NCBI GenBank assembly: GCA_017880805.1 | Contig: JADGRP010000018.1 | Location: 1 to 48,499 of the forward strand | Source: Burkholderiales bacterium | GTDB lineage: Bacteria; Pseudomonadota; Gammaproteobacteria; Burkholderiales; Casimicrobiaceae | Direction of reading: 5' to 3' | Length of the DNA stretch: 48,499 nucleotides | In this document: one piece after another, positions 28,418 through 30,457 of the stretch | How the letters are laid out: each line of letters begins with the position of its first letter | How positions within the stretch are numbered: position 1 is the first letter of the stretch | Position numbers and translations under genes: made by a program | Notes under the pieces: model-generated | What the model saw: the letters and a program-made list of their open reading frames with translations, nothing else | Databases searched by the model: none | Told to the model about the DNA's origin: nothing

Positions 28418-29278
28418 TCATTGCGACGCGTCCATCTGCCCGCGCATGGTCTTGATCGCCTTGCTCTCGATCTGACGGATACGTTCCGCCGACACGCCGA
28501 ACCTGTCGGCGAGCGTCTGAAGCGTCGCTGCGTCATCGTCTTCCCGCAACCATCGCGCCTCGATGATCTCCCTGCTCCGGTCGTCGAGTTGCGCCAGCGC
28601 GCCTTTTAGTCCGTCGCTGCGATTGCGCGACGTTTCGGCCCGTTCGAGAATCTGCGCGGGCTCTGCCTCGGTGTCGGTCAGATACGCGATCGGCGTCATG
28701 GTCTCGCCTTCGTCTCCTGCCGGCGGGTCCAGCGCAACTTCCTGGCCCGTGAGCCGCGTTTCCATCTCCAACACTTCTTCCGGCTTGACGTTCAGCGCCT
28801 GCGCAATCCCGCGCGCCTCGGCCCGAGTGAGCGCGTGGCTACCGGTCTTCATGCTGCGCAGGTTGAAAAACAGCTTTCGCTGCGCCTTGGTCGTCGCAAT
28901 CTTGACCAGTCGCCAATTGCGCAATACGTGCTCGTGTATTTCTGCCTTGATCCAATGCAGCGCGAACGAAACCAGGCGGACACCGCGCTCCGGATCGAAG
29001 CGCCGCACCGCCTTCATGAGACCGATGTTTCCTTCCTGGATCAAGTCCGCCTGCGGCAATCCGTAGCCCAGATAGTTGCGGCTGATCGCGACCACCAGAC
29101 GCAAATGGGACAACACCAGCTGGCGAGCGGCATCCAGGTCGCCATCCCGTTGCAGCCGGCGTCCAAGCTCAACCTCCTGCTCCGCCGAAAGAAGCGGGAA
29201 CCGGTTCACGGCCTGGATGTAATGATCGAGGCTCCCCAGTGATGCCGGGGTTGGAAATGCCAAGGTACTTGCAGACAT
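28418..29278 (-). CDS. rpoH: RNA polymerase heat-shock sigma factor RpoH (sigma32)
   Basis: A protein of 286 residues (family about 284). Region 2 contains DLIQEGNIGLMKAVRRFDP and FALHWIKAEI. The sigma32-specific RpoH box QRKLFFNLR is at residues 133-141. Region 4.2 ends with the helix-turn-helix LADRFGVSAERIRQIESKA. RpoH directs RNA polymerase to heat-shock promoters. A strong ribosome site (GAAGGAGA) precedes the ATG. The promoter upstream is overlapped by a near-perfect CIRCE element, implying repression by HrcA. The usual neighbours ftsE and ftsX between ftsY and rpoH are absent. Confidence 0.98.
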   Translation of the reverse strand: MSASTLAFPTPASLGSLDHYIQAVNRFPLLSAEQEVELGRRLQRDGDLDAARQLVLSHLRLVVAISRNYLGYGLPQADLIQEGNIGLMKAVRRFDPERGVRLVSFALHWIKAEIHEHVLRNWRLVKIATTKAQRKLFFNLRSMKTGSHALTRAEARGIAQALNVKPEEVLEMETRLTGQEVALDPPAGDEGETMTPIAYLTDTEAEPAQILERAETSRNRSDGLKGALAQLDDRSREIIEARWLREDDDAATLQTLADRFGVSAERIRQIESKAIKTMRGQMDASQ

Positions 29279-29305
29279 CTAAATGGTCTCCTTCTGAACA
29301 CCTAA

Positions 29306-29335
29306 ATTTTAGCAGTCAAGCTATAAGAGTGCCAA
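29306..29335 (-). promoter_or_regulatory. Sigma70-type promoter of rpoH
   Basis: On the minus strand TTGGCA (29330-29335) and TAAAAT (29306-29311) are separated by 18 bp, each close to the sigma70 consensus. The start of transcription would fall about 20 bp ahead of the rpoH ATG, leaving room for the GAAGGAGA ribosome site. Confidence 0.65.
29309..29335. promoter_or_regulatory. CIRCE operator (HrcA site) over the rpoH promoter
   Basis: The plus strand reads TTAGCAGTC, nine bases, GAGTGCCAA. The CIRCE consensus is TTAGCACTC-N9-GAGTGCTAA, so 16 of 18 positions match with exactly the right spacing, one mismatch per arm. It covers the -35 and reaches into the -10 of the rpoH promoter, the expected position for repression by HrcA. 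The hrcA gene is not in this window. Confidence 0.85.
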
Positions 29336-29363
29336 CGCGCCCGGAAGTTCCGCCAAGCAATGT

Positions 29364-29396
29364 GGCATTAGTGTGCGCTCGCACTCTTTGAATGCC
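29364..29396. repeat. Imperfect hairpin upstream of the rpoH promoter
   Basis: GGCATT (29364-29369) pairs with AATGCC (29391-29396), and inside it AGTGTGCG pairs with CGCACTCT with one mismatch. It lies between the ftsY stop and the rpoH promoter. There is no T-run after it on the minus strand, so it could be a weak ftsY terminator or an upstream operator. Confidence 0.4.
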
Positions 29397-29463
29397 GCCA
29401 GTGTGGAGGCGTGTCAGCGAAGCGACCCAAGGGCTGCCTTCGAGCGGATGGCCGCGCGTGCGG

Positions 29464-30402
29464 TCATCCGACAAGGGCATCGACGAACTCGGCAGCGCGG
29501 AAAGCCCGAAGGTCGTCGACGCCTTCTCCGATGCCGATCAGCTTGATCGGAACGGGCTGAGTTTTCGCGATGGCCGCGACCACCCCTCCCTTTGCGGTCC
29601 CATCCAGCTTGGTCAAGACGAGCCCGGTCAGATCAAGCGCGGCATCAAAGGCCGCGACTTGGGCAAGGGCGTTCTGGCCGGTGTTGGCGTCCAGCACCAG
29701 CAGCGTCTCGTGCGGGGCTCCCGGCTGTGCTTTCGCCAGCACGCGCCGAATCTTCTTCAGCTCCTCCATTAAGTGCAGTTGCGTCGGGAGGCGGCCCGCG
29801 GTGTCGGCAAGGACGACGTCGATGCCGCGAGCGCGTGCGGCGGCGATCGCGTCGAACATGACGGCGGCCGGATCGCCACCATGCTGGGAGATGACCGGGA
29901 CGCTGTTGCGCTCGCCCCAGATTTCGAGCTGTTCACGGGCGGCAGCGCGAAAGGTGTCGCCGGCGGCAAGCAAGACCGAATAGCCCTGCCCCTGGAGGTA
30001 CTTGGCAAGCTTGCCTATGGAAGTCGTCTTGCCGGCGCCGTTGACACCGGCAATCATCACGACGAAGGGCCGCTCGGGGCCGATGATCAGCGCTTGCTCG
30101 AGCGGCGCAAGCAGCTCGGTCATTACCGCCTTGAGCAATGTACGCGCGTCGGCTTCGCTGTCGGCGCGCTTGGCGCGGGCGGCGAGCTCGGCAAGCAGAT
30201 GCGTCGTCGCGGGAAGGCCGACATCGGCTTCGAGAAGCGCGGCTTCGAGCTCTTCGAGGGTCTCGTCCGAAAGCGCCGCGCGCCCGAACATGGCGTTGAG
30301 TGGACGGGTGAGACGCTCACGCGAAAGCCCCAGACTCGCCTTCAATCGCTCGCCCCAGGGACGGCGATCGGATTCGGCGGGGCGTTTGAACAGATCGAAC
30401 AT
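29464..30402 (-). CDS. ftsY: Signal recognition particle receptor FtsY
   Basis: A protein of 312 residues from ATG 30402 (MFDLFKR); an in-frame TTG four codons upstream is less likely. The N domain precedes the SRP-type GTPase, with GVNGAGKTTSIGKLA (119-133), DTFRAAAREQL, ADTAGRLPTQ (about 201-210) and TKLDGTAKGG (about 261). FtsY docks SRP-ribosome complexes at the inner membrane. The acidic A domain seen in Escherichia coli FtsY is essentially missing; the N-terminal part ahead of the N domain is only about 20 residues. It is transcribed toward rpoH and diverges from rsmD across 55 bp. Confidence 0.97.
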   Translation of the reverse strand: MFDLFKRPAESDRRPWGERLKASLGLSRERLTRPLNAMFGRAALSDETLEELEAALLEADVGLPATTHLLAELAARAKRADSEADARTLLKAVMTELLAPLEQALIIGPERPFVVMIAGVNGAGKTTSIGKLAKYLQGQGYSVLLAAGDTFRAAAREQLEIWGERNSVPVISQHGGDPAAVMFDAIAAARARGIDVVLADTAGRLPTQLHLMEELKKIRRVLAKAQPGAPHETLLVLDANTGQNALAQVAAFDAALDLTGLVLTKLDGTAKGGVVAAIAKTQPVPIKLIGIGEGVDDLRAFRAAEFVDALVG

Positions 30403-30457
30403 GGGGTCCAGCAAGGAGTTGCGAAGCGAAAGCTATAATTCTACCTTTCCGCCCAGC

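Follow-up and report, generated by a model that had tools for sequence, protein, structure and literature searches.

In Escherichia coli, textbook control of rpoH, which encodes the heat-shock factor sigma32, is translational, and the gene is transcribed from sigma70 promoters as well as from P3, a promoter that depends on sigmaE. The locus described here resembles that arrangement in having sigma70- and sigmaE-type promoters 5' of rpoH and 3' of the ftsY region. It differs in that E. coli has no HrcA (our control search with PF01628 was negative there), so no operator lies over its promoters. The initial annotation of this DNA mentioned betaproteobacterial reports of CIRCE, the operator of HrcA, upstream of rpoH and suspected that the logic might be known. 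The report it had in mind is probably that of Permina and Gelfand, who in 2003 treated the heat-shock regulons of beta-, gamma- and epsilon-proteobacteria and may already have listed betaproteobacterial rpoH sites.

The suspicion is borne out by Geobacter sulfurreducens, for which CIRCE upstream of rpoH is listed in a table and its accompanying text (Table 8 in PMC545781). As in our locus, CIRCE stands at both groESL and rpoH in that organism, and two heat-shock systems are joined via rpoH; unlike in our locus, where groES and rpoH alone have the element, it is also found at hrcA-grpE-dnaKJ, and that table and text make no mention of a sigmaE-type promoter under the operator (PMC545781). A second comparison comes from Agrobacterium, in which groE is described as being under RpoH and HrcA (PMC11764788). 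The likeness to the present case is that the groE operon answers to both regulators, but the title of a paper cited there calls them independent (PMC11764788), whereas here HrcA would stand above RpoH. The wiring from HrcA to rpoH is known in kind, and the composite operator over a sigmaE promoter is likely a new variant; a search of the open-access literature, which mostly leaves subscription papers outside its scope, returned no report of an rpoH gene at which CIRCE and a sigmaE promoter overlap.

The rpoH locus and its CIRCE element

The window, meaning the whole stretch of 48,499 nucleotides that we analysed, carries rpoH and its upstream neighbour ftsY on the same strand. The following features, listed by window position, define the region.

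28418-29278, minus strand: rpoH, heat-shock sigma factor sigma32, 286 aa (TIGR02392, 391 bits; cut-off 323.1)
29288-29293, minus strand: AAGGAG, likely ribosome-binding site of rpoH (read from the sequence)
29306-29311, minus strand: TAAAAT, sigma70-type -10-like sequence, beginning in the last 3 bases of the second CIRCE arm (promoter scan; conservation of AT)
29309-29335, minus strand: CIRCE-type putative HrcA operator, TTGGCACTC-N9-GACTGCTAA (16/18 match, kept at rpoH in relatives)
29324-29328, minus strand: TCTTA, sigmaE-type -10, formed by the last 2 bases of the first arm and the first 3 of the N9 spacer (register analysis)
29330-29335, minus strand: TTGGCA, sigma70-type -35-like sequence in the first CIRCE arm (10/12 jointly with the -10)
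29345-29351, minus strand: GGAACTT, sigmaE-type -35, 16 nt 5' of TCTTA (GGAAC register in relatives)
29464-30414, minus strand: ftsY (TIGR00064, 330 bits; cut-off 260.7)

No terminator was found between ftsY and rpoH, so read-through from ftsY into rpoH is possible. Around the two genes, no RNA family, such as a thermometer, reached the Rfam gathering thresholds.

We searched for CIRCE as TTAGCACTC-N9-GAGTGCTAA, holding the spacing exact and allowing up to 3 mismatches. The element reads TTAGCAGTC-N9-GAGTGCCAA on the plus strand at 29309-29335 and TTGGCACTC-TTATAGCTT-GACTGCTAA on the rpoH strand, and agrees with CIRCE at 16 of 18 positions with the exact N9 spacing, as the initial annotation had stated; the range given there, 29306-29335, comprises CIRCE plus the end of the sigma70-type -10. 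Nothing else in the window matches, and 100 shuffles of the window that preserved its dinucleotides gave no match at all. The host genome (G000; 3.9 Mb, 353 contigs, 93.8% complete) holds exactly two sites at this tolerance, one without mismatches 5' of groES and the present one 5' of rpoH with 2, and the reversed control pattern matched nowhere in it. A scan of this kind had been proposed with sites at groES and dnaK in view; the former was found and the latter was not, neither dnaK nor hrcA having CIRCE at ≤3 mismatches in this genome and the 110 bp 5' of hrcA showing none by eye. The hrcA gene itself is present (TIGR00331, 329.6 bits; cut-off 197.2). On sequence grounds, the element at 29309-29335 is a predicted HrcA operator.

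Conservation in relatives and association with hrcA

We examined 31 genomes, the host and 30 relatives. RpoH was matched at E<=1e-70 in 28 of them, and CIRCE with at most 3 mismatches lies 5' of rpoH in 27 of these 28 (its placement in G071 was taken from match coordinates). The exception, G077, has hrcA and an rpoH site with 4 mismatches. Every groES locus analysed carries CIRCE with 0-1 mismatch (29/29; 30 were fetched and 1 was dropped), and these loci, which all come from the 31 genomes, supply the groES control used below. Exactly two CIRCE sites occur in 23 of the 31 genomes, and hrcA was found in 30, G053 being the one in which it was not. Altogether, the set contains 66 CIRCE sites versus 27 matches to the reversed control; most real sites have 0-2 mismatches, and lone matches with 3 are at noise level in these 31 genomes. 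The predicted HrcA sites seen in the host and in most relatives are those of groESL and rpoH alone.

Two relatives hold additional CIRCE-like sites. The one in G078 (contig C23:12323-12349) has 2 mismatches and brings the total to three, next to those of groES and rpoH; the one in G073 (contig C10:89042-89068, near L175) has 3 mismatches and immediately precedes a second copy of groES.

We also collected named rpoH loci, taking the best 80 of at least 592 matches listed, and sought CIRCE within 300 bp upstream. Among these best 80, 52 have the element with at most 3 mismatches (36 of them perfect), 27 are without it, and L060, from Xanthomonas, has a variant with 5 mismatches, which equals the lowest background value and was counted by position alone; elsewhere in these loci, 330-bp stretches gave best matches with 5-8 mismatches. 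All 33 of the best 80 whose titles name genera that we take to be betaproteobacterial carry CIRCE with 0-1 mismatch. Two findings named in the initial annotation as able to refute it, a genome devoid of hrcA and an element not conserved in relatives, are contradicted by these data.

The association with hrcA could be followed in 50 of these 80 genomes (again from the best 80 of at least 592 matches), 23 of which have the gene. CIRCE precedes rpoH in 22 of the 23, the remaining one being L060 with its 5-mismatch variant, and it is missing from 25 of the 27 hrcA-negative genomes, these counts, like the other association statistics below, being uncorrected for kinship. L055 and L062, which have the site but gave no hrcA match, were both assembled from metagenomes and have a perfect CIRCE at groES as well; in these a missing hrcA contig is therefore likely. 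Three rows were dropped from the analysis: L101 (a duplicate of L009), L115 (RpoH motif missed by the script) and L175 (GroES motif missed). The dropped L115 still has a perfect CIRCE 129 bp upstream of rpoH. Together, the site, the presence of hrcA and the conservation lend support to the initial proposal that HrcA probably controls the sigma32 gene.

Several loci show variants of this layout. G051 has rpoH twice (L093 and L116), in both cases at 82% identity to the window RpoH and with a perfect CIRCE of its own; the G051 bin is 6% contaminated, so the copies may stem from two strains. Pseudoalteromonas luteoviolacea (L226, on contig C100 of G047, and L209) encodes a very divergent HrcA-like ORF of 314 aa (PF01628, 46.6 bits), flanked by ORFs resembling nadK and grpE. 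Its sole perfect CIRCE is at rpoH, with three further matches of 3 mismatches each, and rpoH may be all that is left of its HrcA regulon. In the rpoH operators of L060, L063 and L087 (Xanthomonas, Luteimonas and Lysobacteraceae), an arm with GCAGTC or GACTGC replaces GCACTC/GAGTGC, and the identical G to C substitution occurs in the second arm of the window operator. No further CIRCE at ≤3 mismatches was found in the genomes of L063 and L087, where groES therefore seems to be without a standard site.

Two promoter-like sequences across the operator

The initial annotation placed the element over the -35 and -10 of the rpoH promoter, and our scan recovered this overlap. TTGGCA (29335-29330) and TAAAAT (29311-29306), separated by 18 nt, match the sigma70 hexamers at 10 of 12 positions with TG before the -10, and are the sole sigma70-like match in 29200-29480 (shuffles, mean 0.1). 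The AT that completes the -10, two bases past the second arm, is found at 70/80 rpoH sites versus 2/29 groES sites, and like-for-like in relatives at 22/28 versus 2/29. The groES sites have a different layout, with TTGA/TTGC in 28/29 and TAT/TAC immediately 5' of CIRCE in 29/29; judged by the sigma32 consensus, such a layout is expected of a sigma32 promoter with CIRCE at the start site.

Promoters recognized by sigmaE (RpoE) have the consensus GGAACTT, a spacer of about 16 nt and TCNNA. A sequence of this type, absent from the initial annotation, stretches across the same site: GGAACTT (29351-29345), 16 nt and TCTTA (29328-29324), with the -10 inside CIRCE. When rpoH upstream regions are aligned on CIRCE, relatives likewise show GGAACTT upstream.

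The most resilient alternative, though an unlikely one, is that HrcA acts through the sigma70-type promoter alone, whose hexamers are clear, and that GGAACTT and TCTNA are incidental to the promoter region or to base composition. The distribution of GGAAC argues otherwise: 43 of 80 rpoH CIRCE sites have it in register, 36 at -16/-17 and 7 at -12/-13, versus 0 of 29 groES sites. In the first register the TC of the -10 is supplied by CIRCE, which makes register 1 alone weak evidence for a sigmaE-type promoter; with that TC fixed, it is the A at spacer position 3 that carries information. This free A follows GGAAC, occurring in 33/36 sites with GGAAC at -16/-17 versus 6/44 other rpoH sites (Fisher 5e-13, uncorrected for kinship). 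The second register places every one of the three fixed -10 bases in the free spacer, and -35 and -10 have moved jointly by 4 bp, TCNNA lying exactly 4 bp further in 7/7 sites versus 0/73 (also uncorrected for kinship). By title, 5 of these 7 are Comamonadaceae; members of the family with another arrangement are L035, L040 and L050. L019, L025 and L030 are among a few sites with a sigmaE-type -10 placed 3-5 bp before CIRCE.

A matrix scan at the 95% shuffle level identified a sigmaE-like promoter in 55/80 rpoH sites versus 0/29 groES sites, a count that includes the 29 of 36 register-1 sites on which the matrix was trained and which pass by construction. Independently of training, 12 of 37 sites without in-register GGAAC exceed the threshold, as do 7/7 register-2 sites and 0/29 groES sites. 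Nothing sigmaE-like passes this level at the other 25 of the 80 rpoH CIRCE sites, a result that suits an exclusive role for sigma70, and we rejected the register model as a universal one on this count. CIRCE-less rpoH loci exceed their own 95% shuffle level with a sigmaE-like match in 12/27 cases.

The composite pattern GGAACN{11,12}TTRGCACTCTNA, which excludes the second CIRCE arm, matched in 72 of the 369 class genomes, representing 59 of 272 genera, and its reversed control in 0. We fetched loci for matches from 30 of the 72 genomes, the host included; 29 of the 30 lie directly 5' of rpoH and contain a whole CIRCE with 0-2 mismatches. L195 is the lone composite match with neither an RpoH match in its 3 kb nor a whole CIRCE.

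RpoE itself exceeds the family cut-off in 29 of the 31 genomes, which also speaks against sigma70 acting alone; the two below it are the host assembly, a point in favour of that alternative, and G077. The host assembly also yields no match over cut-off for lepA, a nearly universal gene that neighbours the rpoE operon in betaproteobacteria; the absence of RpoE is therefore likely an assembly gap. G077, at 99% completeness, combines no RpoE over cut-off with a degenerate rpoH CIRCE and no GGAAC, a single case suggestive of a link between these losses.

Next in standing, and improbable as well, is the possibility that the window copy is a decaying operator which HrcA binds weakly owing to its two mismatches, with rpoH driven mainly by its promoters. 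The site does have 2 mismatches to CIRCE, versus 0-1 in congeners and 0 at the host groES, and these may lower the affinity of the predicted operator. They are A3 to G and G21 to C, and all remaining positions are intact. The first, a point for decay, brings the -35 closer to TTGACA and is shared by 16/81 rpoH sites; the second recurs in 5/81 rpoH sites versus 0/29 groES sites, a pattern that tuning of rpoH operators fits at least equally well.

To a chance palindrome or promoter-derived likeness unrelated to HrcA we give almost no credence: the match does share some of its bases with promoter hexamers, and 3-mismatch matches do arise by chance, as the reversed control in the 31 genomes illustrates, but the perfect or near-perfect copies in the nearest relatives, and a site that is present with hrcA and absent without it, refute this in practice. 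The window shuffles, the reversed control in the host genome and the 5 or more mismatches elsewhere in the same loci rule out a chance match.

Predicted gating of rpoH by HrcA

We favour an HrcA operator that gates rpoH and groESL and lies, at rpoH, over both sigma70- and sigmaE-type promoters, and we put the probability of this reading at roughly 0.8. What the sequences show is the operator, how unique and how conserved it is, that it occurs together with hrcA and that it overlaps two promoter-like sequences; its effect on transcription is inferred. HrcA very probably controls rpoH through this conserved site, and it probably gates both promoters.

At normal temperature, HrcA on 29309-29335 would keep RNA polymerase off rpoH by blocking TTGGCA-N18-TAAAAT and GGAACTT-N16-TCTTA simultaneously. 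Once GroE is occupied by unfolded protein, HrcA would lose activity; such inactivation upon GroE occupation is established for the HrcA of Bacillus subtilis. With HrcA off, groESL and rpoH would be derepressed together, and new sigma32 would drive the remaining heat-shock genes. SigmaE would provide a second input, reporting envelope stress, that is effective solely when HrcA is off or limiting. An observation from Xylella counts against this mechanism: under nitrogen starvation, hrcA is up four-fold at 2 h and yet rpoH two-fold at 8 and 12 h (PMC3224663), which differs from the prediction of simple repression.

Looking beyond this genome, we lean towards a wider view in which the rpoH promoter of hrcA-bearing beta- and gammaproteobacteria would be an old composite, one HrcA operator over sigma70- and sigmaE-type promoters, with the state of GroE gating the rise of sigma32 under envelope stress. 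Operator and sigmaE promoter would have drifted relative to each other into a few discrete registers with their overlap kept, and lineages that lost hrcA would have kept or lost the sigmaE promoter alone.

If our reading is true, the master heat-shock sigma factor of many beta- and gammaproteobacteria would be placed, at the level of transcription, under a repressor that senses GroE, in contrast to the translational control of sigma32 in E. coli. Cytosolic and envelope stress would converge on one 45-bp stretch of DNA, and the induction of rpoH by sigmaE should depend on the activity state of HrcA.
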